Positions 10,673-31,945 of a DNA stretch of 38,691 bases are shown in pieces. A model generated the notes under the pieces. It made no database searches, was not told the origin of the DNA, and was given only the letters and a program-made list of their open reading frames with translations. How positions within the stretch are numbered: the stretch's first letter is position 1; every line of letters starts with the position of its first letter. A program made the translations under genes and the position numbers. The DNA is from Longimicrobium sp. (GTDB lineage: Bacteria > Gemmatimonadota > Gemmatimonadetes > Longimicrobiales > Longimicrobiaceae). The stretch covers positions 1-38,691 of the forward strand of contig DASVWD010000215.1 of NCBI GenBank assembly GCA_036389795.1, given 5' to 3'.

Positions 10673-10878
10673 TCTCCCGAGCGGCGTCCAAGCGCGATGG
10701 CGCGGCGCAGCCAATCCTCACCCAGGGTGAGGCGGCCGAACCCCGCGGTGAGCTGGCCGACCCGCATTGCGACCGACGCGTCGGCGGGGCTCGCGGCGGC
10801 AGCCGCTTGGGCGAACCACACGGCGGTCCGCGGGGCTCGGGCCGAGACCGCCCAGTCGGAGAAGCGCTCGCAGCAGTA
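10673..10878 (-). pseudogene. 206-bp duplicated fragment of TPR gene 1
   Basis: This is the second copy of 6279-6484, in the same orientation, with 8 mismatches by my count. On the minus strand it still encodes the TPR piece WFAQAAAAASPADASVAMRV and ...FGRLTLGEDWLRR in frame, but the flanks are unrelated to a TPR gene. It is therefore a fragment, not an expressed paralog. It may be a relic of a fourth TPR gene or of a recombination event. The flanks (10485-10672 and 10879-10921) hold no gene I can support. Confidence 0.8.
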
Positions 10879-14729: not shown

Positions 14730-15917
14730 TCAGTCCGTCCGAAGGGCGGCGAGGATACGCTCCAGGAGCGCGTCGACGGCGGCCGAGGGGGCGGGTGGAC
14801 GGTCGCGCGGGCGCAGGCGCGCGTAGCCAGTGGCATCCGTCCGGCGGCGGAGCTCGTCCGCGCGGCGTGCGCGCTCGGCGGGACGGTCGCTGGCCGCCAG
14901 GAGGCGCAGAATCTCAATCTCCATCACCTCGTCGTCCAGGCGGCGCGCGCCCGCGGCCACGCGCCCGGCAAGGGTGCGCGCGGCGGCCGAGGGAACGTGA
15001 AGAACCGCGAGCGCCGCCAGCGCCTGCACGATCAGGAGCGCGGGGAGCTGCAGCCCCTCCAGCCCGCCCATCCGCCCGAAGACGGCCACCAGTTCACCCA
15101 GCGTGCCGGCCGCACTCGTCTCGTCGCCGGCCAGCAGAAGGAGTTCGGCACGGCGCACGTGCGCCACCATGCGGTCCCAGACGCTCCCCGCGCGCACGGC
15201 AGGCTCCACCTGCGCCAGGGCGACGTCCACTCGCCCCTCGCGCCCGAGGGCGATCCAGCGCGCCTCGCGCAGGAAGGCCGCGGCGCCGCCCGCGCCGCGC
15301 TCCGCGTCGCCGTCCGCCATCTCCCGCACCTCGGCCCAGCGGCCGGCGGCGAGAAGGACGCGGAGCCCGTCGATTGCCCACGCGGTGCGGGCGAAGCGCT
15401 CCAGCCCGGCGGGTTCCCACCCTGCGGCCTTCCAGTGCGCGGGGATGATGGCGCGTCCGGCGAGCGACACGGGCGCATCCATCCGGCAGGCGCGCACCTC
15501 GGCATAGTGGCGTAGTGCGGCGGCGGCGTGGCCGCGCAGGGCGTGCAGGCGGCCCAGGTTTATCCAGGGCTGCAGCGCCAGCGCCAGGAGCGCTCCCTCC
15601 CCCGTGCGGTCGGCGCCCGCCTGCAGCCAGGCGACCTGCGCGCGCACGACGCGCTCGGCATCGTCAAGCCGGCCGGCATGCGCGAGGATGAGCGAGGCGT
15701 TGTTCCCGCACCCGGTGACTGTCCGCGCCCGGCCTATCACGTCGGGCTCGGCGAGTGCGGTGGCCAAGCTCCCGGAGAGATCCTCGGCCCACGCTCCCAG
15801 CGGGCGCCGCGCGGGCTGCTCGTTGACCGTGAGCAGGCGCACCCCGGGAAGCGCCGCCGCGTGCGAGTTCGGCGTCAGGGGCGGAGCGAGGGTTGGGGCG
15901 GCCAGTGCGGCACTCAT
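14730..15917 (-). CDS. Helical-repeat (TPR-like) protein, 395 aa
   Basis: The protein has no signal peptide and consists of Ala-rich helical pairs resembling degenerate TPRs: NASLILAHAGRLDDAERVVR, INLGRLHALRGHAAAALRHY and AAFLREARWIALGREGR. No catalytic motif is visible. A VTGCGNNASL element near residue 70 and a basic C-terminus (ELRRRTDATGYARL) stand out. It starts 119 bp after the fatty acyl-AMP ligase gene on the same strand. TPR-type proteins in biosynthetic clusters often scaffold or regulate, but I do not recognise this one. Confidence 0.75.
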   Translation of the reverse strand: MSAALAAPTLAPPLTPNSHAAALPGVRLLTVNEQPARRPLGAWAEDLSGSLATALAEPDVIGRARTVTGCGNNASLILAHAGRLDDAERVVRAQVAWLQAGADRTGEGALLALALQPWINLGRLHALRGHAAAALRHYAEVRACRMDAPVSLAGRAIIPAHWKAAGWEPAGLERFARTAWAIDGLRVLLAAGRWAEVREMADGDAERGAGGAAAFLREARWIALGREGRVDVALAQVEPAVRAGSVWDRMVAHVRRAELLLLAGDETSAAGTLGELVAVFGRMGGLEGLQLPALLIVQALAALAVLHVPSAAARTLAGRVAAGARRLDDEVMEIEILRLLAASDRPAERARRADELRRRTDATGYARLRPRDRPPAPSAAVDALLERILAALRTD

Positions 15918-16036: not shown

Positions 16037-17779
16037 TCATGCACTCCGCGTCTCCACGTGAAGCAGCCGTTCAGGAATCGCCAACGCGCCGTCCATGTAG
16101 AGGCTCCGCAGCCGCACGCGCTGGATCTTCCCGCTGGAGGTGCGGGGGATGGAGCGCGGGAGCACCAGCACCACATCGCGCACGGGGAGCTGGAACTCCT
16201 GCAGCACGCAGAGGCGGATGCGCTCGGGAAGCGCCTGGTGTCCGCCGTCCTTGAGCGCCCGGGGTGGCTCGGCGACCACCACCAGCTGCTCGCCCCCGGC
16301 CGTGGCATCGTACACGCCGAAAGCGGCCACCCCGCCCAGGTCGTCGCGCAGCCGTGCTGCGAGCGCCGCCTCAATGTCGGAGGGGACGAAGGTGCGGCCG
16401 CCGTACTTGAGAATCTCCTTGATGCGGCCGATCACGTGCAGTTCCCCATCCAGCACCACGCCCACGTCGCCCGTGGGCACCCAGCCTTCGACCGCCACGG
16501 GGCGCATCTCGCCGTCCGCTCCGCAGAAGGCGGTGGTGGCGCTGATGCCGGCGATGTGGATCTGTCCCACGCGCCCCGCAGGGAGGTCTCGCCCGTCGTC
16601 GTCGCGGATTGAGATCCTCGTCCCTCGCACGGAGCGGCCGTTTCCCACCGTCGCCTGCGCGTCGACCGCGTCGCCCTCCCCGTTGCCCAGGACGCGCACC
16701 TCGCCGCGCGCCAGGGCGCTCCGGCTCAAGCGGCGGACCGGCACTTCAGTCCCCGGCGTGCGGAGGGTGACTGCGACGCAGTTCTCAGCCAGGCCGTAGG
16801 CGGGCTGGAGGACGCCCGGGCGCAGGCCGAGCGCAGCGAAACGCTCCTCAAAGTGGCGCGAGCTCTCGGCGTGAACCGTCTCGCTCCCGTTCAGCGCCAG
16901 CCGCAGCGACGACAGGTCGTGCTGGCGCAGCCGCTCCCACGCCGCAGGGCGCTGGCTGCGCGCCAGGCAGAGCGAGTAGCCGAACTGGGGCCCCATGGTG
17001 ATGGTGCCGCGGTAGCGCGCGACCGTCTCCAGCCAGCACAGCGGGTTGCGGACGAAGTCCGCGGGGCGCAGCAGCACCAGCATGCCCCCCGACCAGAGCG
17101 AGCCCAGGAGCGCGCCGACCAGTCCCATATCGTGGTAGAGCGGAAGCCAGCTCACCGTCACGTCGTGCGCGCCGCCGCCCAGCCGCTCGGTGACGGCAGC
17201 CAGATGCGCGTTCACGTTCCCGCGCGTGAGGCACACGCCCTTGGGCTGCGCCGTGCTCCCGGAAGAGAACTGGATGAGGAGGAGGTCGTCCGCGCGGCGC
17301 TCGGCGTCCACGAAGCCATCGACCGGCGACCCGGCGGCGAGCAGCGGCTCGACCGCGAGCACGCGCACGGGGATCTCCGCTGCCGAAAGCGCGGAGGCGA
17401 ACGCGGCGAGGCTGGGTTCGGCCACCAGGCACCAGCGGGCGCGTCCGGCGCGGAGGGCGGCGCGCACGGCATCGCTCTTCGCATCACCCGGAACAGGGGC
17501 GGCCACGTCCTGCACAGGGACGAGGGTCGCGCCCAGGCGCTGGACGGCGATCAGGGTGACCACCGTCTCCCACCGCGACGACATCGCCAGCGCCACGCGG
17601 GCGCCACGCTCCACGCCGCGCGCGCGCAGGGCGGCGGCCACCGTCGCGCTCCGAGCCCAGAGCGACGCGTAGGTATGGCGCTCCTCGGCGGCGCCGGGGG
17701 TGACGAGCGCCAGGTGATCGGGGTTGCGGGCATGTTCGCGGACCGCCTCCGGAACGCCGCGCTCCAGGTCGAACGTCAT
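16037..17779 (-). CDS. Fatty acyl-AMP ligase (FAAL-type adenylate-forming enzyme)
   Basis: The enzyme should activate a fatty acid as acyl-AMP and load it on the ACP encoded upstream. The start is the ATG at 17779, which overlaps the preceding stop as ATGA and follows GGAGGGGAAGG; a longer frame upstream is not needed. The 580 residues carry the P-loop LLLIQFSSGSTAQPKG (about 167-181), the FAAL-like WLPLYHDMGLVGALL (211-225), the adenine-binding YGLAEN, TGDVGVV, the hinge GRIKEILKYGGRTFVPSDIE and, near the end, SSGKIQR with the catalytic lysine. It is probably competent. With ACP and two dehydrogenases it matches the lipid-starter cassette of ramoplanin/enduracidin-type pathways. The exact chain length cannot be read. 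Confidence 0.9.
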   Translation of the reverse strand: MTFDLERGVPEAVREHARNPDHLALVTPGAAEERHTYASLWARSATVAAALRARGVERGARVALAMSSRWETVVTLIAVQRLGATLVPVQDVAAPVPGDAKSDAVRAALRAGRARWCLVAEPSLAAFASALSAAEIPVRVLAVEPLLAAGSPVDGFVDAERRADDLLLIQFSSGSTAQPKGVCLTRGNVNAHLAAVTERLGGGAHDVTVSWLPLYHDMGLVGALLGSLWSGGMLVLLRPADFVRNPLCWLETVARYRGTITMGPQFGYSLCLARSQRPAAWERLRQHDLSSLRLALNGSETVHAESSRHFEERFAALGLRPGVLQPAYGLAENCVAVTLRTPGTEVPVRRLSRSALARGEVRVLGNGEGDAVDAQATVGNGRSVRGTRISIRDDDGRDLPAGRVGQIHIAGISATTAFCGADGEMRPVAVEGWVPTGDVGVVLDGELHVIGRIKEILKYGGRTFVPSDIEAALAARLRDDLGGVAAFGVYDATAGGEQLVVVAEPPRALKDGGHQALPERIRLCVLQEFQLPVRDVVLVLPRSIPRTSSGKIQRVRLRSLYMDGALAIPERLLHVETRSA

Positions 17780-19008
17780 CCTTCCCCTCCCTCGAGGGCA
17801 GCCCGCCGCATCAGCGCCGCGAGCCGGCTCCCGTACAGCTCGCGCATGGTCTCCGAGGTCCCCGCGAACACGCTGAGGACGCGCACCTCGCGGATCACAC
17901 GCTCCAGCCCCGCGTCTTCCCACGCCGCCGCGGGACCGCGCAGGCGGACGCAGTCGTCCACCACGCGCTGCGCCAGCTCGCAGAGGGCGAACTTGGCCAT
18001 CGAGGCCGCGGCCGCGTCGGTGCGCCCGGCGCCCACCTCGCCCGCGGCGCGGTAGGCGAAGGCGCGCGCGCCCTGCAGCCAGGCGTGCATCCGTGCCAGC
18101 GGGGCCGCGGCCGCCGGGGCGGACGTCGCCGCCGTCTCCTCCAGCACCGAGCCGGCGAGCGCGAGCGAGCCGACGGCGATCAGCAGCCGCTCATGGCAGA
18201 GGACGTGGGCCATCTGCGGATAGCCGTGCCCGGCGCGGCCCACCGTGAGGCGCGCGGGGACGCGGCAGCGGTCGAGCCGCACGTGCCCGGTGGGCGACGC
18301 CTCCAGCCCCAGCTTGCAGTGCCAGGCCACCGTCTCGAATCCCGGTGCGTCGGTGGGGACCGCGATCAGCGACATGGTGAGCGGACCCGCGCCGGGCGAG
18401 GTGCGCGCCAGGACGAGGACCACGTCGGCGATGGGGGCGTTGGTGATGAACATCTTCTCGCCCGTGACCACCCACTCGGTACCCTCGCGGACGGCCGTGC
18501 ACGAGACGGTGTGGGGGAGCGCAGAGCCGCCGGCCGGCTCGGTCGCGCCCAGCGCGCCGATCGCCTCGCCCGCAGCCAGCGGCGCCAGCCACTCGCGCCG
18601 CACCTCAGCCGAGCCGAACAGGGCCAGGAGTGGGCAGAGGGTGTTGGACTGCACCATCAGGCTCACCGCCGCGCTCGTGGCACGGTGACGCATGAGCTCC
18701 TCGGCCAAGGCCACGGCGTAGGAATAGTCCAGCCCGGCGCCGCCCATCTCGGGCGGAACCGTCACCCCCAGGATTCCGGCGCCTCCGGCGGCGCGAAAGA
18801 GCTCGCGGGGGAGGCGCCCCTCGCGCTCCCACCCGTCCAGGTGCGGGAGGACGGCCTCGCGCACCAGTCGTCCGACCCGGACGCGGAAGGCGCGGTGACC
18901 CTCACTCCATGCGTACGGCGCGTCCGTGCCCGGGGCGCTCCGGAGCCCGGCCGGGTCGCGCGCGGCGTCCGCCGACTCGGCGGCTGGAAGGGAGAGGAGG
19001 TCGGTCAT
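17776..19008 (-). CDS. Acyl-CoA (acyl-ACP) dehydrogenase 2
   Basis: The 410-residue flavoprotein starts at the ATG at 19008, which overlaps the stop of dehydrogenase 1 (ATGA). The family pattern is complete: the N-terminal helical domain ends at the FAD-binding segment GALGATEPAGGSALPHTV, then WVVTGEKMFITNAPIADVVL (strong ACAD signature), KLGLEASPTGHVRLDRCRVP, and the C-terminal VFAGTSETMRELYGSRL. The usual catalytic Glu of the YEG motif is Ala here (FAGTSE). The alternative base position of long-chain/isovaleryl enzymes is kept (CHERLLIA), so activity by that Glu is likely. It presumably introduces a double bond into the acyl chain on the ACP. Confidence 0.92.
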   Translation of the reverse strand: MTDLLSLPAAESADAARDPAGLRSAPGTDAPYAWSEGHRAFRVRVGRLVREAVLPHLDGWEREGRLPRELFRAAGGAGILGVTVPPEMGGAGLDYSYAVALAEELMRHRATSAAVSLMVQSNTLCPLLALFGSAEVRREWLAPLAAGEAIGALGATEPAGGSALPHTVSCTAVREGTEWVVTGEKMFITNAPIADVVLVLARTSPGAGPLTMSLIAVPTDAPGFETVAWHCKLGLEASPTGHVRLDRCRVPARLTVGRAGHGYPQMAHVLCHERLLIAVGSLALAGSVLEETAATSAPAAAAPLARMHAWLQGARAFAYRAAGEVGAGRTDAAAASMAKFALCELAQRVVDDCVRLRGPAAAWEDAGLERVIREVRVLSVFAGTSETMRELYGSRLAALMRRAALEGGEG

Positions 19009-20135
19009 GCGGGCACGCCGAAGGCAGATTCGAAGTGGTGCGCCGGGGGCGCGGACACAGCGCGCAGGTCCTCGGCGGCGGCGCGCTCCAGGGCGCCTGG
19101 GTCGCCGGCGGCGAGCAGCCCCACGCTCAGCAGGTCGCGGTACAGGTGCGAGGCCGGGTGGTCGGCCATGAAGCCGCGGGCGCCCATCAGCTGCATGCAT
19201 CCCTCGGCGACCCGCAGCGCGGCGTCCACCGTGACCAGCATCAGCGCCGCCGCGCGCGGGGGAGCGAGGGCGTCGCGGAGGCACGCATCGGCTGCCTCAC
19301 CCGCAAAGGCGGCGGCGATCTCCAGGTCGGCCATCAGGTCCGCCAGGCGGTGGCGGACGGCCTGCTGATCGCCCAGCACCCGTCCGGGGCCGAAGGCGCG
19401 CGTCCCCGCGAAGGCCAGCGTGCGCCGCAGCACCTCCTCCGCCGCGGCGACGACCGCCGTCGCGAGCAGAAGCCGCTCCTCCGCAAGCGCCCCGGCGATC
19501 CCCGGCGCTCCAGCGGCGAAGACTCGCTGGGCGGGATCGACGAGACACCCGTCCAGCCGCACCTCCCCCAGGGCGGCGGCGTGCAGCCCCACCGCGCCAC
19601 GCGGCACGATGGAGACGCCGGGGTCCGCCAGCGAGACCACGGCCAGCGCCCCCGTCCCGGCGCCGGGGACCAGTTCCAGGGGAACGATGACCCAGTCCGC
19701 GCCGGGCGCGTTCAGCACTGCGCCCAGGACGCCGTCCAGCCGCAGCCCGCCCGATTCCCCCAGGCGCTGCGCCCGCACCCCGTCGCCTTCACGCGCCCAC
19801 GCGACGCAGCCGACCGCCTCCCCCGCGAGCATCGGCGTCAGGACACGCGCCTGCACGGCGGGCCCTGCATGGCGATCCAGCAGGAGGAGCGGCGCGCCGA
19901 CTGCATGCAGCAGCGTGGCCGCGGTCCCCAGGGAGCCGGCGCGGCCCAGCGCGTCCGCCAGTTCCAGCCGGCCGGCGGCGTCCTCCGCCGCCGGAAGGAG
20001 CCCTGCGCGCCCCAGCGCCCGCACCTCCGCAAACGGCGCGGCGCGCTCCCGCTCCCACGCCTCCACGCGGAGCGCCACGTGGTCGCGCACGAACGTGGCG
20101 GCGGCCGACCGGGCGGGGCAGGTGGGGATGATCAC
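19005..20135 (-). CDS. Acyl-CoA (acyl-ACP) dehydrogenase 1, divergent
   Basis: Start: GTG at 20135 overlapping the ACP stop as GTGA. The 376-residue protein is an acyl-CoA dehydrogenase relative. The C-terminal helical domain is clear (AEERLLLATAVVAAAEEVLR, ALRVAEGCMQLMGARGFM, ASHLYRDLLSVG). The middle beta-domain is degenerate compared with dehydrogenase 2: the WVVTGEKxFITN signature is replaced by LRLDGVLGAVLNAPGADWVI. The C-terminal GTxEI motif is absent (LLAAGDPGALER). An ERLLLA glutamate at the long-chain-type base position remains. It may be catalytic or a partner subunit of dehydrogenase 2. Pairs of such dehydrogenases desaturate the acyl chain in ramoplanin-like clusters. Confidence 0.85.
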   Translation of the reverse strand: MIIPTCPARSAAATFVRDHVALRVEAWERERAAPFAEVRALGRAGLLPAAEDAAGRLELADALGRAGSLGTAATLLHAVGAPLLLLDRHAGPAVQARVLTPMLAGEAVGCVAWAREGDGVRAQRLGESGGLRLDGVLGAVLNAPGADWVIVPLELVPGAGTGALAVVSLADPGVSIVPRGAVGLHAAALGEVRLDGCLVDPAQRVFAAGAPGIAGALAEERLLLATAVVAAAEEVLRRTLAFAGTRAFGPGRVLGDQQAVRHRLADLMADLEIAAAFAGEAADACLRDALAPPRAAALMLVTVDAALRVAEGCMQLMGARGFMADHPASHLYRDLLSVGLLAAGDPGALERAAAEDLRAVSAPPAHHFESAFGVPA

Positions 20136-20407
20136 GCGGCCGGGCTCCCCGTGGGCGCGGGCACCAGCGAGTCGCCGATGGCCGCGATCAGCGCGGCCAT
20201 GGTCATTTCGGGCGCCAGGCGGGTGGAGAGCGCCTCGGTATCCACCTCGCCGTGCAGCGCCTGCTCCACCGCCACCACCGACTGCGCCAGCGCCAGCGAG
20301 TCCAGTCCCACGGAAGAGACCGTGGCGCCGTCGTGCAGCACCTCCACCTCCACCCTCAGCTCGGCGGCGATGGCCTCGCGGATCGCTTCCCTGTGGTCGT
20401 CGCTCAT
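20132..20407 (-). CDS. Acyl carrier protein
   Basis: The 91-residue protein has the carrier-protein fold signature: an N-terminal helix (HREAIREAIAAELRVE), then SSVGLDSLALAQSVVAVEQ with Ser37 as the phosphopantetheine attachment site (GLDSLAL), and a short C-terminal helical part. The extra acidic C-terminal tail is short. The stop overlaps the GTG of dehydrogenase 1, beginning the coupled run ACP, dehydrogenase 1, dehydrogenase 2, FAAL. No phosphopantetheinyl transferase is in the window, so that activity must come from elsewhere. The carried acyl chain is the probable donor for the LPLAT-like transferase encoded upstream. Confidence 0.92.
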   Translation of the reverse strand: MSDDHREAIREAIAAELRVEVEVLHDGATVSSVGLDSLALAQSVVAVEQALHGEVDTEALSTRLAPEMTMAALIAAIGDSLVPAPTGSPAA

Positions 20408-20553: not shown

Positions 20554-22965
20554 TCAGTCATGGCGAAGTGCGACGGAGGGCTCCACGCGGGTGGCCGCAC
20601 GGGCGGGGATGAATGCGGCGGTCAGCGCCACGGCGAACATCACCACCGGGCCCGCGGCGAACACCACCAGGTCCGAGCCACCCACTCCGTACAGGAGCGA
20701 GCGCAGCAGCCGGGTGAGCACCCACGACGCGGGGAGCCCCAGCACCACCGCCATCCCGGCCAGCCGCGCCCCGCGCGCGACGAACAGCGCCGTCACCGCG
20801 CGCGGCGAGGCGCCCAGCGCCGCGCGGATGCCGATCTCCTGCGTGCGCTGCCGCACCGTGTACGAGAGGATGCCGTAGATCCCCAGCGAGGAGAGTCCCA
20901 ACGCGATGACCGCGAAGACACCGGCCAGCCAAGCGTACAGACGCGGGAGCCACATCGAGCGGCGCGCCACCTCGTGGAGCGTCCCGGCCTGATCCACCGG
21001 GAGCTCCGGATCGATGCGACGGAGCTCCCCGCGCACGCCCGGGATCACGTCGGCGGGATTCCCGGCACGGGTGCGAACCACCAGTCGCCCAAACGGAAGC
21101 GCCGCCTGCGCGAGCGGGACGTACACGGTGGGCCAGGGGGGGAGGGCCACCCGCGTGTCCTTCACGTCGCCCACCACCCCCACCACCTCGCGCCAGGGGC
21201 CGGCGGCGCGGCCCAGCCGCACCCGCTTCCCCACGGCGCTCTCCCCTGGCCACCAGAGCCGTGCCATCGTCTCGTTGACCACCACCACCGGCACCGCGTC
21301 GGCGCGCTCGCTCCCGTCGAAGGCACGACCGGCGCGCAGCGGGATGCGCATCACCCGGAAATAGCCGCGGCTCACCGGATTGGAGAGGGCGAACGGAGCC
21401 TCCTCGCCCGCGGCCGCGACGCGGCCCTCGACGGCGACCTCGCTCCCCCGGCCCCCACCGCCCAGCGGGAGGACGCCCACCGCAGCGGCACCCTCCACCC
21501 CGGGGAGCGCCGAGACGCGGGCGATCAGCTCGTCCCACAGCGCCTGCTGCTGCGCCGACGCCGGATAGCGCCGCAGCGAGAGCGCCAGGCGCGCGGTGGC
21601 CACCCCCTCCGCGCGGAAGCCGGGGTCCACGGCCCGCAGTGCCACCAGGCTCTTCGCCAGCATCCCGGCGCCCACCAGCAGCACCAGCACCAGCGCCGTC
21701 TCGACCACCACCAGCGTACCCTGCATCCGGCCGGCGTGCGCGTCGGTGGTGCCGCGCCCGCCGGCTTTCAGCACCTCCTGTAGCTCCACCCGCCGCAACT
21801 GCAGCGCGGGCGCCAAAGCGAAGAAGACGACGCCGGCCAGAGAGAGCCCCGCCGCGAAAACCAACACTCGCCAGTCGAGGGAGAAGTCCACCCAGAAGGG
21901 GAGCTGGATGGGAATGGCCGCCACAAGAAGGCTGCGTCCGGCGAGCCCCATGAGCACCCCGGCGGCACCGCCCAGTCCGGCCAGCACCGCCCCCTCGGCC
22001 ACGAGCTGCCGAACAATTCGCCCGCGGGAAGCTCCGAGCGCGCTGCGCACCGCCATCTCCTTGCGGCGTTCCACCGAGCGGGCCAGGAGGAGATTGGCCA
22101 CGTTGGCCCAGGCGATCGCCATTACCACCAGGGTAAGCCCCTGGAAGAGGAGCGCGGCGTGGCCGGTCTCGCCGCGTAGCGCCTCGTGCAGCGGCCTTAC
22201 CGCGACGGTAACCCCGTCGTTGCTCTCCGGGTGTGCCTCGGCCAGGCGCCAGTTGATGATGGCGATCTCGCCCGCCGCGCCCTCCAGCTCCGCCCCGGGC
22301 GCCAGCCGGCCGACTGCGGCCAGGGTGCGCTCGCCGCGGCGGCGGTGCGCGGAGTCGGCCCGGAGCGGCACCCAGAGCTCGGCATACTCGGGGAAGCGAA
22401 AGCCCACCGGCATCACGCCCACGATCGTGTGCTCGGTGCCGTCGATCCTCAGCGTCTTCCCCACCGCTGCGCGATCGCCCCCGTACCAGCGCGTCCACAG
22501 CGCGTGGCCCAGCACCACCACCGCCGGAGCGCTCGGCGCTCCCTCGCCGACGGCGAAGCCGCGGCCCAGGAGGGGGGTGACGCCGAGTACCCGGAAGAGA
22601 TCCTCGCTCACCACCGCCCCGGACGCACGCTCGGCCTCGCCGCCGCCGGAGAGGTCGAAGGCGGCGTCGCGGAAGGCGGCCATCGCGGAGAACGAGCGGC
22701 TCTGCGCCCGCCAGTCGGCGAAATCCGGGTACGAGGTCGACATCCAGTCCACCGTCCCCCGCTCCGGTGTCTGCTCGTCCAGGTACAGCAGCCGGTCCGG
22801 TTCCGGGAAGGGGAGCGGCTTCAGCACCAGCGGGTTCAGCACGCTGAAGATCGTGGTGTTCGCCCCCACGCCTAAGGCGATTGCGCCCACCGCCAGCAGC
22901 AGGAAGCCGCGGGTGCGGAAGAGCGCGCGGACCGCGAAACGCAGGTCGTGGGTCAGGAATTCCAT
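20554..22965 (-). CDS. ADOP/MacB-type ABC permease, 803 aa
   Basis: The protein begins MEFLTHDLRFAVRALFRTRG, the usual start of acidobacterial duplicated orphan permeases. It has two FtsX-like halves, each with an N-terminal membrane helix, a periplasmic MacB core and several C-terminal helices. Visible elements: GAIALGVGANTTIFSVLNPL (first helix), GVMPVGFRFPEYAELWVP (periplasmic core), ANLLLARSVERRKEMAVRSA (coupling helix) and TQEIGIRAALGASPRAVTAL (second coupling helix). No ABC ATPase gene is in the window, so it must borrow one, which is why such permeases are called orphan. In this cluster it probably exports the mature peptide or helps place it in the envelope. It starts 110 bp after the M50 gene ends. 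Confidence 0.93.
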   Translation of the reverse strand: MEFLTHDLRFAVRALFRTRGFLLLAVGAIALGVGANTTIFSVLNPLVLKPLPFPEPDRLLYLDEQTPERGTVDWMSTSYPDFADWRAQSRSFSAMAAFRDAAFDLSGGGEAERASGAVVSEDLFRVLGVTPLLGRGFAVGEGAPSAPAVVVLGHALWTRWYGGDRAAVGKTLRIDGTEHTIVGVMPVGFRFPEYAELWVPLRADSAHRRRGERTLAAVGRLAPGAELEGAAGEIAIINWRLAEAHPESNDGVTVAVRPLHEALRGETGHAALLFQGLTLVVMAIAWANVANLLLARSVERRKEMAVRSALGASRGRIVRQLVAEGAVLAGLGGAAGVLMGLAGRSLLVAAIPIQLPFWVDFSLDWRVLVFAAGLSLAGVVFFALAPALQLRRVELQEVLKAGGRGTTDAHAGRMQGTLVVVETALVLVLLVGAGMLAKSLVALRAVDPGFRAEGVATARLALSLRRYPASAQQQALWDELIARVSALPGVEGAAAVGVLPLGGGGRGSEVAVEGRVAAAGEEAPFALSNPVSRGYFRVMRIPLRAGRAFDGSERADAVPVVVVNETMARLWWPGESAVGKRVRLGRAAGPWREVVGVVGDVKDTRVALPPWPTVYVPLAQAALPFGRLVVRTRAGNPADVIPGVRGELRRIDPELPVDQAGTLHEVARRSMWLPRLYAWLAGVFAVIALGLSSLGIYGILSYTVRQRTQEIGIRAALGASPRAVTALFVARGARLAGMAVVLGLPASWVLTRLLRSLLYGVGGSDLVVFAAGPVVMFAVALTAAFIPARAATRVEPSVALRHD

Positions 22966-23075: not shown

Positions 23076-24401
23076 CTATCCTGCCCGTTGTGAGGCCTGC
23101 GCCTGGCGCGGCCGCACCTCGCGCCAGACGGCGCGCGCGGCGCGGGCCAGACCGAGGAGCATGGATCCCAGGCGAACGACGAAGTGATAGGTGAACTTGA
23201 CGGTACCGATCAGCACCAGCGTTCGCCACGACACCGACAGTAGCGCTGAGCCCAGAGCCACCAAGTGGAAGGGTCCCAGCGCCGTCCACACCCCGCGCAG
23301 CGCCGCCGGATAGGTGACCGCCACCGCCATCAGCAGCCGCTGGAAGACGAAGTGGAAGGTGAAGACGAAAAAGGCGAGCCCCACCCCCGAGTACGCGAGC
23401 AGCACGGCGAGCGCCCCGCGCGAGAGGGGGAGCGGCTCCGGCCGCACCCGCCCGCGCCCGAAGAGGCGGAGGAAGACCCAGCGGGGGAGCCCCGCGGTGC
23501 GCGCGTGCAGGTTGGGAATGCCCAGCACGTCCGACATCAGCCAGTACCCGTCCATCTTGAAGAACGGGTTCAGCGAACTGGCGATGGCCAGGTCGGTGGC
23601 CAGGAACACGTACAGCGGCACCGCCGACCCCGTGGACGCGAAGACGCCCAGGAGCGCCGCGGCGAAGAGTGCCTGGAAGTAGATGCCCCCCACGTCGATC
23701 AGCGCGCGCTGCTTCCGGGGCAGCCGCCAGGCCTCGGAGAGGTCGGTGTAGAGGACGGTCATGTAGTAGTACATCCCCCACCCGATCTCCAGCCGGCGGC
23801 ACCCGAGCCACGCCGCCGCCGCCGCGTGCCCCAGCTCGTGCAGGAAGGTGCTGGCCACCATCAACCCCAGGATGGCCCCGAAGCGCGGCCCCCGCACCTG
23901 CTGGAACCCCAGCCCGTGCTCCGGCGCCAGCTTCAGCCAAAAGAGGAGGTGCGCGGCGGCGATCAGCACCAGGCCGGCGGCGAACGCCGGACGCGAGAAC
24001 GTCCACCCAACCAAACGGGCCAGCGGGGTGACCACCGACGGCGGGAGGAGCCGCATCCGGAGCGTCAGATACGACAGCCGATCTGCCTTCTTTGCGGGGA
24101 GCGGCGCCGCCTCCGCGCCCACCGGCGCCAGGATGCCGCGGGGGACCAGAAAGCCGTCCACCAGCTTGTGGACGTCCGCCGCAGAGAGGCCGCCGCGCGC
24201 CTCAGCGGCTCGCGCCACCTCGTCGGTCGCGCGCGTGCCATCGAACTCGCGCAGCAACGCCGCCAGCCGGGTGGGGACCACGAAGCGCGCCGCGGAGCCA
24301 TCCACGCGCGGCACCTCGCACAGCGTCTGCGGCTCCACGCCCGCGCCATCGAACGGGCAGGTCTGGATCGCGGTGTTGAAGCGGAGGAGAGTCGAGCTCA
24401 T
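23076..24401 (-). CDS. M50-family membrane metalloprotease with N-terminal PqqD-like domain
   Basis: The start is the ATG at 24401, preceded by GGAAGGA. In 441 residues, about 40-95 form a PqqD-like winged-helix region (VVPTRLAALLREFDGTRATD, ending in a short helix and LVPRGIL), the type that binds RiPP leader peptides. Residues 140-430 are a polytopic membrane domain with zinc motif HELGH (188-192) and downstream NPFFKMDGYW (278-287, Asp284 the third ligand). Both motifs are intact, so proteolysis inside or at the membrane is expected. It follows the precursor gene by 225 bp. Its likely job is to cut the leader or couple cleavage with export. YydH- and daptide-type clusters also contain membrane proteases, but this is not a proven homolog. 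Confidence 0.88.
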   Translation of the reverse strand: MSSTLLRFNTAIQTCPFDGAGVEPQTLCEVPRVDGSAARFVVPTRLAALLREFDGTRATDEVARAAEARGGLSAADVHKLVDGFLVPRGILAPVGAEAAPLPAKKADRLSYLTLRMRLLPPSVVTPLARLVGWTFSRPAFAAGLVLIAAAHLLFWLKLAPEHGLGFQQVRGPRFGAILGLMVASTFLHELGHAAAAAWLGCRRLEIGWGMYYYMTVLYTDLSEAWRLPRKQRALIDVGGIYFQALFAAALLGVFASTGSAVPLYVFLATDLAIASSLNPFFKMDGYWLMSDVLGIPNLHARTAGLPRWVFLRLFGRGRVRPEPLPLSRGALAVLLAYSGVGLAFFVFTFHFVFQRLLMAVAVTYPAALRGVWTALGPFHLVALGSALLSVSWRTLVLIGTVKFTYHFVVRLGSMLLGLARAARAVWREVRPRQAQASQRAG

Positions 24402-24626: not shown

Positions 24627-24842
24627 TTAGATCTGGGTCGCGCTGAGGCCGGCGCTGGGTTCGAGGCTGCCGCCGCCGCCGCCGCCGCTGGTGCAATAGG
24701 CGTTGGTCGTGGGGCCGGAGGGGCTGCAGGTGGTGTTGGTCCCGCCGGTGGTGCAGCCGCAGTTGTCGTCGCAGAGCTCGGCGAACTCGAGGCGGTCCTC
24801 GAGTTCCAGGATCGAGAACTCCGCAGTCAGCTTCTGGTCCAT
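24627..24842 (-). CDS. RiPP precursor peptide, 71 aa, five Cys and a Gly6 run
   Basis: A GGAGTGA ribosome site precedes the ATG. The leader part (1-22) is acidic and helical (FSILELEDRLEFAE, residues 9-22). The core begins near residue 23: LCDDNCGCTTGG with Cys24, Cys28 and Cys30, then Cys39 and Cys50, many Thr/Ser/Asn/Gly, followed by six Gly (53-58) and the tail SLEPSAGLSATQI. Small size, an acidic hydrophobic leader, a Cys/Gly/Ser/Thr-rich core and placement between maturase and protease genes make it the likely substrate. The Cys residues could take thioether bonds from the radical SAM enzyme; Ser/Thr could be dehydrated, but no dehydratase is seen. Lipidation at a nucleophile is proposed from the neighbours. 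No known precursor family was recognised. Confidence 0.85.
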   Translation of the reverse strand: MDQKLTAEFSILELEDRLEFAELCDDNCGCTTGGTNTTCSPSGPTTNAYCTSGGGGGGSLEPSAGLSATQI

Positions 24843-24943: not shown

Positions 24944-26239
24944 TCAGTCGCTCTCACGGAGGAGCCCGTGGGCCTGCAGTCGCGCCAGCACGTCGAGCGT
25001 GGGGCCGCGCTCCCCGGCCGGAAGGTCTTCGACGGCGGCCCGGTCGAGCCCCCGCTCCGTCTCGAGGGGGCGGAGGAGCTCCGCCGCCTCCGGAGGGAGC
25101 GGGAAGGCACGCAGCGTCCGCGCGTCCACCAGCGCCGCCCCTGCCCGGCCGTCAAGCCGCACGCAGCGGCCCACGTCCAGGCGGAAGGCGGCACCCGAGC
25201 CGAGCCGGCGCTCCACGGCCACCGGGTCCGGCGGACCTTCCACGGGCGGCGCCACCCCGGCCAGCCGCCAGCGGTGCAGGAAGCGGACGTCCTGCCACTC
25301 GGCCGGGTCCCCCGCCACGTGCTCCGCGAAGAAGTCGTACAGCGCCTGCATGGTGCGGTGGACGTGCTCGGCCGCGTCTTCGCCAGGGGGCGGGGGGAGG
25401 ATCGGGACGCCGCACGCCACCCGCCCCGGGTGCGGCCCGTCGGGGAGTGCGGCCACGGGGAGGATCGCCGCGCCGTTGGCGGCGGCCAGGCGCGCTGCAC
25501 CGGTCATCACCCGCAGTTCCATCCCTAGGAAGCGCACCGCGCAATGCGAGAGCACCGCCTCGCCTCCTCCCCAGCCGCGGTTGCCGTCCACGTTCAGGTA
25601 GGCCGCGCCCCCGCCGCGCAGAGCGCGCACCAGGGTGACCAGCCCGGCGGGGTCGTCGATCCGCGCCACCTTCAGCCCGTGCAGACCGGACGCCCCGTTC
25701 CCGCCGCGGCGGTTCTCCTCCACGGTGCGGGTGTCCACCGCGAAGGTGAGCGGGAGACCCAGGTGACAGAGGTCGGTGGGGACGAAGCGGTACGAGCCGA
25801 AGTGGAAGCCGCACACCAGCACCCCGCGCCCGTCCGCACGCAGCGCCTCCAGCGGCGCCTCGTCCCACCCTCTCAGCACCGGACCATTTCCTCCCGGGCC
25901 CGCATCACCGTTCCCCGCGCCGATGCGGCGCAGCGCGGCGTCGTGGTAGCGCATGTTGTGCTGCCACCCGCGCCATAGCCGGTTGCGCGCGCACTGCGCC
26001 GCCACGCTGCGCACCTGCTCCGCCGGCCACCTCTCGCCGAAGAGCGACGTAAGGTTCAGCAGGCACGCCTGATAGCCGAAGGGGACCAGCCCCTCACCAT
26101 TCAGCCGCTGGATGGCGGTGTGCACCTCGTCGGGCTCGCCGCACAGCTCGCCCAGGTAGCGGGCCACCCGCCGTCGGAGCATGTCCTGCCCCTCCGCGCG
26201 ACCCTGGGGGGGAGCGGCAGTCACGGCGGTCACCGCCAT
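24944..26239 (-). CDS. LPLAT/HtrB-like acyltransferase with C-terminal PqqD-like domain
   Basis: The start chosen is the ATG at 26239, 24 bp after the radical SAM stop; the upstream open frame is the shadow of that gene. In 431 residues the order is: N-terminal helical region (1-110), LPLAT-like acyltransferase core (130-320) and PqqD-like winged helix (350-431, FRLDVGRCVRLDGRAGAALV ... LARLQAHGLLRE). Core hallmarks: GVLVCGFHFGSYRFVP, AAYLNVDGNRGWGGGEAVLS and AARLAAANGAAILPVAAL, as in LpxL/HtrB. The catalytic HX4E box is altered: His146 is present but the acid position is Arg151 (HFGSYR). The fused PqqD-like domain should dock on the precursor leader, so the acyl group may be put on the peptide. 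It is the most unusual protein in the window. Alternative: a non-catalytic carrier or scaffold. Confidence 0.85.
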   Translation of the reverse strand: MAVTAVTAAPPQGRAEGQDMLRRRVARYLGELCGEPDEVHTAIQRLNGEGLVPFGYQACLLNLTSLFGERWPAEQVRSVAAQCARNRLWRGWQHNMRYHDAALRRIGAGNGDAGPGGNGPVLRGWDEAPLEALRADGRGVLVCGFHFGSYRFVPTDLCHLGLPLTFAVDTRTVEENRRGGNGASGLHGLKVARIDDPAGLVTLVRALRGGGAAYLNVDGNRGWGGGEAVLSHCAVRFLGMELRVMTGAARLAAANGAAILPVAALPDGPHPGRVACGVPILPPPPGEDAAEHVHRTMQALYDFFAEHVAGDPAEWQDVRFLHRWRLAGVAPPVEGPPDPVAVERRLGSGAAFRLDVGRCVRLDGRAGAALVDARTLRAFPLPPEAAELLRPLETERGLDRAAVEDLPAGERGPTLDVLARLQAHGLLRESD

Positions 26240-26262: not shown

Positions 26263-27747
26263 CTAGACGGCGGCGGGGATGTTGGGGTCCACCCGAGTGC
26301 CGTCCTTGAGCACCCGGGTGGGGTGAATGCGCTGCTTTCCGGCTTCGTACGTCTCCAGGAGCGCCGTGTGCAGCGCGCGCTTGATGGGCGGGCAGGGGCG
26401 GTTGCCGCTCTCGATGCGCTCCATCGGACAGTGCATTCCCTGGCAGACCGGCACCATGTAGCACTTGGCGCAGCCGCTGTCGTTCTCGAACGCCGGCTCC
26501 GTCCATAGGCTCATCTTGTCCAGGTCCAGGTTCAGCTCGCCGTCCGGCGTGAGCTGGCCCACCACGTTGTAGTCCTTCTTGTCGAGCGCCACCGTGCACT
26601 TCATCACCTTCCCTGTGGCGCCGATCAGGAAGTTGTAGGGGCGGGCGGCATAGCAGACGCCGTTGCCCGGGCGCGACATCGACCCGATCCCGCGCGTCTC
26701 GAAGCCCTGCTCGATGGCCGTGCGGTTCATCTCGCCGCGGACCTTCTTCTCCTCGTCGAGCCCGCAGGTGGAGAGGTTCTGATCATTGTCGCCGCCCCAC
26801 TTCCCCACCGCGTGGAAAGACAGGTGGTAGCGCGGGTCGCCGCCGAACTCCTCCCCGATCATCCGCACGAACTCGGGGAGTGCGGGGGCGTTTTCCCGGT
26901 CGTAGTTCACGCGCAGCGTCACGCGGAACTGATCCGGGCGGGCCTTGAGCGCCTGCAGGTTGGCGAAGATGGTGTCGAAGGTGCCGCTCCCGTCGCGGCC
27001 CACCCGCTTCTTGTTGTGGTACTGCGCGGGCCCGTCCAGGGTGATCTGGAAGTCGCGGATCCCCCACCCCAGCAGCTTGCCGGCGGTCTCAGGGGTCAGC
27101 AGGTACCCGTTGGTGGTCATGTGGCACCCGAAACCCAGCCCGTTCTCACGCGCCGTCTCCTGGAGGAAGGGAGCCAGGTCCTCCACCGCCTCCATTCCGT
27201 ACAGCGGCTCGCCGCCGAAATAGCTGACGGAGAGTTCCTTCAGCCGCGGAGCGCGCTTCCGCACCAGCGCCTTGACGGCCTCGCGTGTCTCCGGCGTCAT
27301 GGTGCCGCGGGCGAAGTCCTCGTAGCAGTACACGCAGCGGAAGTTGCAGTCCTCGCTGGTCATCAGAATCAGCGACAGGATGTCGGTACGGTACTGCTGT
27401 TTCCCGAAAGCGAACTGCAGGCGCTGGCGCTCGTTGGTGCCCCTGCTCACGAGGTAGCCGCGCTTGTGCAGGTACTCCACCATGCCCTCCAGCTTCGCCG
27501 TGATCCCCTGCTGGACCAGGAGCCGTTCCACCGTCTCGACCTGTTCCGGCTCGAATACAGTGATCTTCCCCGAGAAGGTATTCCACATCACCAGGCGGCC
27601 GTCGGGCGAAGTGGTGCGGGTGTTGTAGCGCGAGGGAACGAACTGGCGCCTCCCGGTCGGCAACGGCGGGATCTGGACCAACTGCTTGGGCTTGCAGGGC
27701 GACGCGTCCAGCGGCGACTGCCGCATGATGTCGGGAGTGCCGATCAT
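26263..27747 (-). CDS. Radical SAM/SPASM peptide maturase with N-terminal PqqD-like domain
   Basis: This 494-residue enzyme has an N-terminal PqqD-like region (about 45-105, WNTFSGKITVFEPEQVETVE then LEGMVEYLHKRGYLV). The radical SAM core has CNFRCVYC (Cys134, Cys138, Cys141 bind the cluster) and YFGGEPL (176-182). A C-terminal SPASM domain has Cys365, Cys384, Cys426, Cys429, Cys435, Cys440 and Cys452 for two auxiliary clusters (CAKCYMVPVCQGMHC). All are intact. Such enzymes form thioether (sactipeptide/ranthipeptide) or C-C crosslinks in RiPPs; the precursor has five Cys, so thioether formation is a natural guess. Start: MIGTPDIM with GAGG upstream. A 7-bp inverted repeat lies about 100 bp upstream. 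Confidence 0.95.
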   Translation of the reverse strand: MIGTPDIMRQSPLDASPCKPKQLVQIPPLPTGRRQFVPSRYNTRTTSPDGRLVMWNTFSGKITVFEPEQVETVERLLVQQGITAKLEGMVEYLHKRGYLVSRGTNERQRLQFAFGKQQYRTDILSLILMTSEDCNFRCVYCYEDFARGTMTPETREAVKALVRKRAPRLKELSVSYFGGEPLYGMEAVEDLAPFLQETARENGLGFGCHMTTNGYLLTPETAGKLLGWGIRDFQITLDGPAQYHNKKRVGRDGSGTFDTIFANLQALKARPDQFRVTLRVNYDRENAPALPEFVRMIGEEFGGDPRYHLSFHAVGKWGGDNDQNLSTCGLDEEKKVRGEMNRTAIEQGFETRGIGSMSRPGNGVCYAARPYNFLIGATGKVMKCTVALDKKDYNVVGQLTPDGELNLDLDKMSLWTEPAFENDSGCAKCYMVPVCQGMHCPMERIESGNRPCPPIKRALHTALLETYEAGKQRIHPTRVLKDGTRVDPNIPAAV

Positions 27748-28053: not shown

Positions 28054-28926
28054 TCACGCTCTGGCGACGATCCCCAGCTCTTCTTCGTACACCCTGCCAC
28101 GCGCGTCGGCGAGCTCCGTGTCAGTGCTTGTCTGCTCCACCCCGTGCGCGACTGACGACTCGCAGTCCGTCCGCAGGAGGTGGGTGCGGGCGAACACGTG
28201 CAGTCGCGCCGTAATCAGTCTCCCCTCCTCCGCCGGGGTGTAACCAGCCCTGTGCACGAGTCGCTTGGTCAAACGACGGAGCGTATGCTCGTGGACACCC
28301 AGTTCGACCGCTACCTCGGCGGTGCGGCGCCCAGCCAACCTGCGGCGGCTCGCGTGCAGCAGCAGCACCAGCCCGAGGAAATCCACCAGCCGCAGGCTGG
28401 GGCCCGGACCCGCCGTCTTGCGCCACTGCAGGCACAACGTGGTGCGGTCGCAGTGCACGCTCGCCGCCAACTCGGCCACGGAATAGACCGGGCGATGCGC
28501 CAAGCAGGCGTGCATCAGGGCCGTACGCAGCGAGCGGGGAAGGTGCTGCGCCTCGCCCAACAGTTCCCCCAATGCGTGCAGCGAACTGCACGCACTGGCG
28601 CGCTGCACCGCGTCGGCAAGTGCAGTGTCCGCGTTGGCCAACCACACCACCTCCTCCACCATCAGCGAGCACAGATGGCGCGCGTTCTCCATGCACCCGC
28701 GGGTGGCCAGCACAATGGGGTGACAGGGGAATCGCCTACGGAAGCGGCGCAGCTGCGCCACGTCCTCACCCTCGTGGAGCCACTCGATGCGCACCACCGA
28801 GCAGAGTGCCTGCGGCGCTCGCCGCTCGAACTCGCGCCAGTCGTGCACGAGGCAGCGCTCGGGGAGCGGGCCCGCCGCGAGATATCGTTCGAGGCGCGGA
28901 GAGTCTTTCTCGAAGACGAGGATCAT
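28054..28926 (-). CDS. AraC-type transcriptional regulator (probable cluster regulator)
   Basis: In 290 residues, the first 110 (MILVFEKDSPRLERYL... VRIEWLHEGEDVAQLRR, then HPIVLATRGCMENARHL) resemble a degenerate receiver-like or effector domain without a clear phosphorylatable Asp. Residues 148-170 (SVAELAASVHCDRTTLCLQW) and 203-225 (AEVAVELGVHEHTLRRL) form the two helix-turn-helix units of an AraC family DNA-binding domain. It is on the same strand as, and just upstream of, the radical SAM gene, separated by a gap with an inverted repeat. It probably controls the RiPP cluster. The family call rests on the paired HTH pattern. Confidence 0.75.
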   Translation of the reverse strand: MILVFEKDSPRLERYLAAGPLPERCLVHDWREFERRAPQALCSVVRIEWLHEGEDVAQLRRFRRRFPCHPIVLATRGCMENARHLCSLMVEEVVWLANADTALADAVQRASACSSLHALGELLGEAQHLPRSLRTALMHACLAHRPVYSVAELAASVHCDRTTLCLQWRKTAGPGPSLRLVDFLGLVLLLHASRRRLAGRRTAEVAVELGVHEHTLRRLTKRLVHRAGYTPAEEGRLITARLHVFARTHLLRTDCESSVAHGVEQTSTDTELADARGRVYEEELGIVARA

Positions 28927-29608: not shown

Positions 29609-30144
29609 TTAAGGTGGTCCCGATCTCCCGAGAGGATCGGCCCCGCGGCGTCGATTCCCGCCCTCTGGCAGTGGCGACGCCAGCAGTTCTGTGACCGCCC
29701 GCCTCAAGCGGCCCCGCAACTCCTCTGGAACGCCGGTGGCGGTCAGAAGTGCATCGAGGGCCACTTCGCGTACCTGGTCGGCAGGCTCGTGTCCGACGCG
29801 CCTCAGGTACCAGAGCCAGTCGACGTGCCATCGAGAAAGTTGCTCAGGCCGGTAGGAGCAAACGACCGCTTCTCGGATCTGGGGTCCGCTTCGGCGGACA
29901 GCGCGCTCAGCTCACGCGCGAGCGCGCGCAGTGAAGTCCGGTCGCGTTCACGCCTGAGCGCGGCCCGTACAGGCTCCCAGTCGATTTCCGCGGGAGGAGC
30001 TTGCTCGTCTATCCGCGCGGGCTTCCGCCCGGCAGGTGCAGCGCCGGACTCAGGCTCCGACCTCACTTTGCGTACGCGACGCACGGAGGGATAGACTACG
30101 TGGTCGGGGTACGCTTCCCCAGCACCCTGATAGCCGATTCGCAT
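29609..30144 (-). pseudogene. Frameshifted helix-turn-helix protein, SPTGL family (copy C)
   Basis: From an ATG at 30144 the frame encodes 113 residues with the family pattern RERDRTSLRALARELS and APTGLSNFLDGT, then stops at 29803. The missing second half continues in another frame: RWHVDWLWYLRRVGHEPADQ, DALLTATGVPEELRGRLRRA, stopping at 29609. A single frame change near 29820-29835 restores a full family member. The copy also has about 15 extra residues (ALSAEADPRSEKRSF) inside the HTH. It could be an inactive gene or a sequencing error. Confidence 0.6.
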
Positions 30145-30276
30145 TCTGGGCGTGTGTGGATGATTCGGAGGGTGGCAGCACGTGTCGGGCTCAGAAAGTG
30201 AACATAGGGAACGCTTGGGCGCAAGAGGGGCGGTGCCGTCGAGGTTCCTTCTCTCTCCGGCTCGATGGAAAGGCAA

Positions 30277-30315
30277 AGCCCCTGCGGCACCTCGCACGCA
30301 GGGGCTCTTTCTTCG
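30277..30315 (+). terminator. Hairpin terminator AGCCCCTGC/GCAGGGGCT plus CTTTCTT
   Basis: Arms 30277-30285 and 30298-30306 are 9 bp each with a 12-nt loop, followed by a pyrimidine-rich tail on the plus strand. The minus-strand tail (TTTGCCTTTCC) is also U-rich, so it may act both ways. No plus-strand gene ends just upstream. It directly precedes the radC-like fragment. Confidence 0.6.
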
Positions 30316-30667
30316 GCGAGTTGCTGACGCTCCTCCTCGACCCTGGACGGGGCCGGGCGAGGGCCGAGCGCGCCGCGGCGGCGCTGCTCTCGCGCTGTGC
30401 CGGCGCGGACGGACGCATGCGGCTGCGCGCCGTCGCCGCCGCGCCGCTCGCGCGCGCCGCCGGCATCGGCTACGCATCGGCCGCGCGGATGGCCGCGGCC
30501 TTCGAGCTGGGCCGGCGGGCGGCGAGCGGCGCGGCGGCGCGTTCCTGTTCAAGCAGATGGGGGGTCGCACACCGAAGGCCAGCGGCCGCGAGCTCGACGG
30601 CCGAACACACGTCGAGTGGCCCCAGCACCCGGAGGTGCAGCGGTGGATCGTCCGAGAGGCCGCGTAA
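30316..30667 (+). pseudogene. Chimeric remnant: RadC N-terminal fragment joined to a Gp37/Gp68-like tail
   Basis: From 30316 one frame reads GELLTLLLDPGRGRARAERA, then GADGRMRLRAVAAAPLA and ASAARMAAAFELGRRAAS. This is the same N-terminal part of RadC as in the gene at 31406, but without the JAB metalloprotease domain. At about 30535 the text changes, in another frame, to FLFKQMGGRTPKASGRELDG and ends near 30667. That piece resembles the C-terminus of phage Gp37/Gp68 (DUF5131) proteins, typically FFFKQWGGxxPKxxGRxLDG. Two broken genes have been joined by deletion. No expressed protein is expected. Confidence 0.6.
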
Positions 30668-30691
30668 GAGCGCACCTATAAAGTCTATTTA

Positions 30692-30906
30692 TCAGCCTCC
30701 CAGGAGCATGAAGCGGCGGGTGCGGGGCGCGGACGCAGGGTGCCCGGTCCAGCGCAGCCAGAGAGCCTCGTCGGTTACCTCCGTCTCGCGGCCTGCCGGC
30801 AGCGCTGCGGATGCGGTGACAATTCTGAGCATTCGGTACGTCACGGTAGTGGATGCAGGAAAGGCATCGGTCCCGCATGCCGCGCACGTCTCACTGCGGC
30901 GGCGGG
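30692..30906 (-). CDS. Possible small zinc-ribbon-like ORF (doubtful)
   Basis: A minus-strand frame reads TCAACGTDAF-like text (ETCAACGTDAFPASTTVTYR), then MLRIVTASAALPAGRETEV and ALWLRWTGHPASAPRT, ending MLLGG. One CAAC pair suggests a metal site but there is no second pair. The frame stays open to 31210 through an unlikely N-terminus that contains a terminator hairpin. It is either a small truncated gene or chance; the start is not determined. Confidence 0.3.
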
Positions 30907-31092
30907 ACCGGGGTTGGGTGTCAGCGCTGAGTTGGTGAAGGACGACCCGGGTGTGGGACGAACGTTGCCCGACGACAGGCCCGAGCTCAACCAACGCCCG
31001 CCGGTCAGGACCGCTCGTTTCAGAGCACGGTGACCAGGCTCGGGGAGAAGAGCCCCCGCCAGGCCCGGGAGGTGGGAGGAACCCGGGAACAG

Positions 31093-31405: not shown

Positions 31406-31945
31406 ATGCGCCTGCGCGCCATCGCCGCCGCGCCGCTCGCGGAGCTCGCGCGCGCCGCCGGCATCGGCCACGCGTCGGCCGCCCGGGTAGCGGCCGCGTT
31501 CGAGCTCGGCCGACGGGCGGCAAGCGAGTACGTCCTCGACCGCGAGCGGCTCGCGAGCGCCCGCGACGTCTACGAACTGATGCGGCTCGCGCTACGGGAC
31601 CTCCCGCAGGAGGAGCTGCACGCGCTGCTGCTCGACACCCAGAACCAGCTGATCCGCGACGTGCTGGTGTCGCGCGGCACCGTCGACGCTACCCTCGCGC
31701 ACCCGCGCGAGATCTTCCGCCCGGCCATCCAGGAGGCCGCCGCGGGGGTGATCCTGGTCCACAACCACCCCAGCGGCGAGCCTCACCCCTCCCCCGAGGA
31801 TCGCGCCATCACGCTCCAGGTCGCGCACGCGGGCCGCACCATCGGGATAGCGCTGCTGGACCACGTGATCATCGGCGAGGGCCGCTACCACTCCTTCGTC
31901 GAGTCCGGCACCCTGCCGGACGCGCCGCTCGGCGCCTTCGCGTAG
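31406..31945 (+). CDS. radC: RadC-family JAB metalloprotease-like protein (N-terminally broken)
   Basis: The 179 residues from the ATG at 31406 contain the end of the N-terminal helical region (GIGHASAARVAAAFELGRRA) and the complete JAB/MPN domain. Motif: VILVHNHPSGEPHPSPEDRA (JAMM: HxH...SxxD), followed by LLDHVIIGEGRYHSF. The HNHP and SPED residues are intact. RadC homologs are common on plasmids and integrative elements; despite the name, a DNA repair role is not supported for E. coli RadC. The N-terminal half lies in a different frame just upstream. A second N-terminal fragment at 30316 shows that part of this gene was duplicated. A plus-strand terminator follows at 32003. Confidence 0.85.
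   Translation: MRLRAIAAAPLAELARAAGIGHASAARVAAAFELGRRAASEYVLDRERLASARDVYELMRLALRDLPQEELHALLLDTQNQLIRDVLVSRGTVDATLAHPREIFRPAIQEAAAGVILVHNHPSGEPHPSPEDRAITLQVAHAGRTIGIALLDHVIIGEGRYHSFVESGTLPDAPLGAFA

Follow-up and report, generated by a model that had tools for sequence, protein, structure and literature searches.

Acyltransferases of the LPLAT superfamily usually form O-esters, of lipids or sugars rather than acylated peptides. In the mycobactin mbt-2 genes (MbtK-MbtL-MbtM-MbtN), a ligase, an acyl carrier protein (ACP), an acyl-ACP dehydrogenase and an acyltransferase are combined for a peptide-like product, the acyltransferase MbtK being a GNAT. Lipidation by GNATs is also known for the selidamides, nostolysamides, microvionin, goadvionins and lipoavitides, all of which are RiPPs (PMC13060382). 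RREs are winged helix-turn-helix domains, one of which is contained in NisB (PMC6231123), and fusions of RRE-like domains with JmjC proteins of PF08007 have been reported (PMC12710340). The closest solved relative of the protein described here, as judged from a family profile, is PatA (PDB 5f2t), with which it shares a His base and a block-3 acid; PatA uses a PIM acceptor and has no C-terminal winged helix (PMC4792965). In PatA, H126 is the base and the block-3 residue E200 completes the relay with the His; D131 of its HX4D box is structural and contacts the block-2 residue R164, and the D131A variant retains 37% of the activity (PMC4792965). The alignment presented by the PatA authors suggests that the block-3 acid is used likewise by HtrB and MsbB (PMC4792965). 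According to the sections of the LpxJ report cited here (PMC6148475), this Rickettsia enzyme is an active LPLAT without the HX4D/E acid, for which His61 of block I is proposed to pair with Asp132 of block III.

The window, that is the whole stretch of 38,691 nucleotides analysed here (genome G000), carries a cluster whose best reading is a new family of fatty-acylated RiPPs with an LPLAT-RRE fusion as acyltransferase. Relatives of the fusion occur within the same family in G014 and G004, with identities of 58% and 34% over the matched part, and, within the same class, in G170. The genes of the cluster and its borders in the window are as follows.

14730..15917, minus strand: 395-aa protein matching TPR marginally, with conserved counterparts next to the cluster in G014 and G170
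16037..17785, minus strand: fatty-acyl-AMP ligase, whose strongest PDB matches include FAAL 3pbk, FadD32, FadD23 and FadD28
17776..19008, minus strand: acyl-CoA dehydrogenase-like protein b (ACADb), matching models of the carrier-bound dehydrogenases RedW, PigA and MbtN
19005..20135, minus strand: acyl-CoA dehydrogenase-like protein a (ACADa), divergent
20132..20407, minus strand: dedicated ACP with a GLDS phosphopantetheine site
20554..22965, minus strand: duplicated permease of the ADOP family (MacB/FtsX type), a candidate for export or immunity
23076..24401, minus strand: M50-type intramembrane protease, nearest NCBIfam model daptide_HExxH (E 7e-32)
24627..24842, minus strand: precursor peptide of 71 aa, with leader ...AEFSILELEDRLEFA and Cys/Thr/Gly-rich core ELCDDNCGCTTGG...
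24944..26239, minus strand: putative LPLAT-RRE fusion of 431 aa, with an HtrB/PatA-type core at residues ~50-325 and a C-terminal winged-helix-like domain at ~340-431
26263..27747, minus strand: radical SAM/SPASM peptide maturase, nearest NCBIfam model TIGR04463 (under cut-off), with 52-71% identity to those of the other three clusters
28054..28926, minus strand: HTH protein, probably a regulator, with conserved counterparts next to the maturase in G014 and G004

The joint distribution of leader and fusion was searched in a 298-genome sample of the phylum, G004 coming from a separate family sample. Within the phylum sample the precursor leader is present only in G000, G014 and G170, and these same genomes give the only strong matches to the fusion (E 4e-49 or better, with other LPLATs at 2e-12 or weaker); G004 also has both leader and fusion. 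A scan of genome contigs for relatives of the fusion returned only the G004 copy, and searches of plasmids and of viral contigs gave no match. The four fusion proteins form one side of a branch in the tree, with a support of 100/100. In all four genomes the fusion is accompanied by the radical SAM/SPASM maturase, the precursor, the M50 protease and the ADOP permease, over two contigs in the case of G014; as in a RiPP pathway, a precursor of conserved leader and variable core is accompanied in each by maturase, protease and transporter candidate. The link of the fusion to a peptide, which the earlier note had drawn, is borne out by this conserved company of precursor, maturase and protease. As for relatives of the maturase itself, no homologue of the fusion, the M50 protease or the precursor is found in the stretches examined around the G015 gene (L043, 7888-9435) or the second G014 copy (L044, 746-2212). 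In G170 (L032, 9266-10470), the fusion is followed by a DUF6065 protein (PF19541, E 1e-93) and adjoined by a protein of 132 aa that matches nothing in Pfam or NCBIfam.

The cluster continues with the ACP, the two ACAD-like proteins and the ligase in two of the four genomes, those of the window and G014, which share the gene order, with identities of 63% for the ACP, 52% and 71% for the ACADs and 63% for the ligase. G004 has its own ACP and a ketosynthase downstream. Since tblastn with the ACP and ligase of the window finds no homologue in the G170 stretch examined, the genes for donor supply are not shared by all four clusters. In NCBIfam, ACADb reaches the MbtN model at E 1e-19, and ACADa and ACADb may function as a pair; the usual C-terminal YEGT motif of ACADs reads VFAGTSE in ACADb and is missing in ACADa. 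The logic of this supply is that of mycobactin mbt-2, but with an LPLAT-RRE fusion and a ribosomal peptide in place of the GNAT route, and a Pfam scan of 13 window genes gave no GNAT model. The maturase scores 199.7 bits against TIGR04463 over residues 46-466, the curated cut-off being 525 bits, and by this score it is related to that family yet outside the equivalog. The M50 protease, through its resemblance to daptide_HExxH, recalls the RRE-bearing intramembrane protease of the daptides (PMC10036551), and its N-terminal ~95 aa may be a second leader-binding domain; a profile comparison of this segment with the C-terminal domain of the fusion was negative. It is the only protein of the cluster that resembles a daptide gene product: the daptide leader differs, and neither decarboxylase, aminotransferase nor methyltransferase of the daptide type is found among the Pfam matches of the same 13 genes.

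The fusion gene is an open reading frame of 431 codons plus stop on the minus strand (26239..24944), the plus strand being interrupted there by stops. The earlier note had recognised an HtrB/LPLAT core, and this assignment holds: residues 135-324 match PF03279 (Lip_A_acyltrans) with 25.3 bits, the Pfam gathering score being 22.3. The nearest NCBIfam model is that of phosphatidylinositol mannoside acyltransferase (PatA), with a score far under its cut-off, and a profile of the four family members retrieves mycobacterial PatA from the PDB at E 5e-5. When ordinary LPLATs are added to the profile, lipid A lauroyl acyltransferase and PatA structures are matched at E 1e-26 to 1e-28. From these matches the core is read as a diverged acyltransferase of the LpxL/HtrB/PatA type. 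As with LpxL/LpxM (HtrB/MsbB), which also belong to PF03279, a donor of the acyl-ACP type is likely; unlike them, the fusion has HX4R, a C-terminal domain and a RiPP gene context, and is without the hydrophobic N-terminal stretch. From PatA it differs by HX4R, by the missing block-2 Arg, by the extra domain and by the peptide cluster around it. The two key positions of the core are these.

25787..25804, minus strand: block 1 HFGSYR, with H146 as predicted catalytic base and R151 in place of the HX4E acid (from the alignment)
25586..25588, minus strand: block-3 Asp218 (VDGNRG), aligned with PatA E200 and invariant in the family and in ordinary LPLATs

The replacement of HX4E by HX4R, pointed out in the earlier note, proved correct. 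R151 is encoded by CGC at 25789-25787 (minus strand), and block 1 of the four family members reads HFGSYR, HFGSYR, HYGAFR and HFGAYR. A sequencing error can be ruled out, because Arg is kept in all four genomes while HX4E is carried by 14/14 ordinary LPLATs of the phylum. The latter also have the block-2 Arg and the DQ of block 3 without exception (14/14 each). The combination of HX4E with the block-2 Arg occurs in 0/4 fusion proteins; the loss of this Arg is read from a loop whose alignment is uncertain. No variation is seen at H146 and D218 in the 11 aligned rows, comprising the four family members and seven ordinary LPLATs. PatA residues H126, D131, R164 and E200 map to H146, R151, the lost block-2 Arg and D218 of the fusion, and HMMER aligns E200 with the Asp of the ordinary DQ, which is D218 here. 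Ten residues after H146, all four fusion proteins have an Asp (D156) that none of the ordinary LPLATs compared possesses. As aligned, the two most important catalytic residues are kept, and the HX4 acid and the block-2 Arg are altered jointly. R151 may provide a positive charge from a new position, the block-2 Arg being lost; we infer such a role for R151, since the block-2 alignment is uncertain and the full-length AF2 model (two input sequences) reached only pLDDT 38 and is not usable. The argument that the mechanism must differ from that of LpxL is not supported, H146 and the block-3 D218 being retained, and the proposal that the protein binds acyl-ACP without acylating did not find support either, the counterparts of PatA H126 and E200 being in place. 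A parallel is LpxJ, where, in the cited sections of its report (PMC6148475), the HX4D/E acid is likewise missing and a block I-III charge relay is proposed; LpxJ is, however, a DUF374 protein acting on lipid A, and those sections describe no fused recognition domain.

All four family members carry the C-terminal extension of about 100 aa, which the seven ordinary LPLATs aligned lack.

24947..25249, minus strand: C-terminal RRE-like domain, residues 331-431 (HMM, AF2 model, structure matches)

NF038044 (act_def_assoc_B), which we take to be a PqqD-like model, matches the domain in one of the four members, with E 0.0012 and 19.3 bits against a cut-off of 45. A Pfam search of the domain gave no relevant match and no PqqD. 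A PqqD-type RRE consists of three strands followed by three helices; the AF2 model of residues 331-431, built from two sequences, has pLDDT 70 and pTM 0.65 and comprises an N-terminal strand, helices and a C-terminal strand, with its residues 28-41 (the wing) below pLDDT 50. VIA-align superposes this model on the C-terminal domain of YcfD, presumably an RRE-like-bearing JmjC protein of the PF08007 kind, over 85 residues with Z 7.6. Lower scores (Z 3.0-4.5) were obtained with the LanB enzymes NisB (133-227), TbtB (257-353) and MadB (143-236), in stretches that we assume to be their RREs. PqqD is absent among the structure matches of the model, and Foldseek against the PDB gave no match at E <= 0.001. 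The extension that the earlier note took for a PqqD-like winged helix is real, and its identity as PqqD or RRE draws moderate support from the sub-threshold NF038044 match, the pLDDT 70 model and Z values of at most 7.6. Taken together, these comparisons suggest, with moderate support, that the extension is probably a winged helix of the RiPP-recognition type (RRE).

The leader motif F[SN]ILELE[DE]RLEFA is near-invariant in the precursors of all four genomes, and a CxxxC follows within three residues of it. The core varies between the genomes and reads ELCDDNCGCTTGG... in the window, ELCDGNCGCTNTGC... in G014, DTCNIYCPQKAEAEAPATS in G004 and MCCDYQCGPNTNCDGTCPPPVKTGGGD in G170. G014 has three precursor copies, one of which is truncated where the contig stops. 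Glycine runs are present in the cores of the window (24627-24842; six residues) and of G014 (L037, 1-916; about ten). Every core contains Cys and Thr and offers an alpha-amine once the leader is cleaved; the cores of the window and G014 contain no Lys. Acylation of Lys, as in selidamides and nostolysamides, is therefore ruled out as the shared chemistry. Peptide N-acylation, which the earlier note had favoured, is possible but is not singled out: with Cys and Thr in every core, S- or O-acylation is just as compatible, and since LPLATs usually make O-esters, O-acylation of Thr would be at least as likely as N-acylation. If the fusion needs the leader for binding, acylation would have to precede cleavage by the M50 protease, which favours a side chain as acceptor.

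We consider it fairly probable that the fusion is the lipidating enzyme of a RiPP pathway, a leader-guided LPLAT that acylates the core peptide with H146 and D218 in catalysis. The C-terminal RRE-like domain would hold the F[SN]ILELE[DE]RLEFA leader (FSILELEDRLEFA) of the adjoining precursor, and the LPLAT core would move a fatty acyl group from the acyl carrier protein onto the core peptide. H146 would be the general base and D218 its acid partner, as H126 and E200 are in PatA, and catalysis would survive the presence of R151. In the window and G014, the fatty-acyl-AMP ligase would load the ACP and the two acyl-ACP-dehydrogenase-like proteins would modify the chain. The radical SAM enzyme would cross-link or otherwise alter the Cys-rich core, and the M50 protease would cut off the leader, with the ADOP permease as possible exporter of the product. 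The sequences show the gene order, the conservation, the motif changes and the common leader, whereas we infer that the peptide is acylated, on which atom, that the C-terminal domain binds the leader, and in which order the steps occur. At the evolutionary level, it can be hypothesised, with about even chances, that an LPLAT of the HtrB/PatA fold became a leader-guided peptide acyltransferase through fusion to a recognition domain, forming an ester, thioester or amide, with no GNAT and with a local supply by ligase, ACP and dehydrogenase, and that a block-1 Arg took the place of both the block-1 acid and the block-2 Arg.

Other readings of the same proteins have to be weighed. The fusion might acylate a non-peptide acceptor, such as a cell lipid or glycolipid, with the peptide playing another role or being a mere neighbour, as would be suggested by its membership of PF03279 and by the fact that PatA, HtrB and MsbB acylate lipids or sugars (PMC4792965). 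We regard this as quite unlikely, as the fusion, precursor, radical SAM and M50 genes are co-located in four genomes although the LPLATs are 29-56% identical to that of the window, and as the extra domain is confined, among the LPLATs aligned, to cluster members. The same confinement bears on the proposal that the free N-terminus is acylated after M50 cleavage and that the C-terminal domain docks the ACP or a partner and is not an RRE. The alpha-amine of every cleaved core and the moderate support for an RRE speak for it; we nevertheless hold it to be unlikely, given that the domain accompanies an LPLAT only in precursor-bearing clusters and that LanB stretches, albeit at low Z, are among its structure matches.

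It could also be surmised, along the lines of the alternative offered in the earlier note, that the core is a catalytically dead scaffold that binds acyl-ACP or lipid and joins the precursor with the membrane or with partner enzymes. Such a role would be in line with the loss of the HX4 acid and the block-2 Arg and with the unusual Asp at H+10 and block-3 VDG of the family. Its probability is very low in our view: H146 and D218 are strictly kept and their equivalents H126 and E200 are essential in PatA, where loss of the HX4 acid is tolerated in D131A (PMC4792965), and LpxJ is functional without this acid according to the cited sections of its report (PMC6148475).

The reading that we prefer, a leader-guided LPLAT acting on a ribosomal peptide, sets this cluster beside the GNAT-lipidated RiPPs, both being fatty-acylated (here by prediction), with a GNAT there and an LPLAT here. 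Those peptides are lanthipeptides, whereas the present one is a Cys-rich peptide of a radical SAM pathway, with two cores devoid of Lys. Literature searches among open-licence papers found no title on an LPLAT in a RiPP pathway, and the word 'acyltransferase' is missing from the main text of the RRE surveys PMC7470986 and PMC12710340. If the reading is true, peptide lipidation would gain a second enzyme fold, that of an LPLAT directed by a leader-binding domain and able to use acyl-ACP donors, and the family would offer a natural test of the role of the HX4 acid in the LPLAT superfamily. The leader F[SN]ILELE[DE]RLEFA provides a search handle for the entire family. Elsewhere in the window, a stretch of the ORF at 30036-30938 (plus strand) resembles the start of a RadC-like ORF at 31406-31945 (plus strand), a resemblance left unconfirmed by tblastn, in which the RadC-like protein matched only itself in the window at E <= 1e-3. 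The window also contains a direct repeat of 206 bases, at 6279-6484 and 10673-10878, whose copies are 96% identical by self-BLAST.
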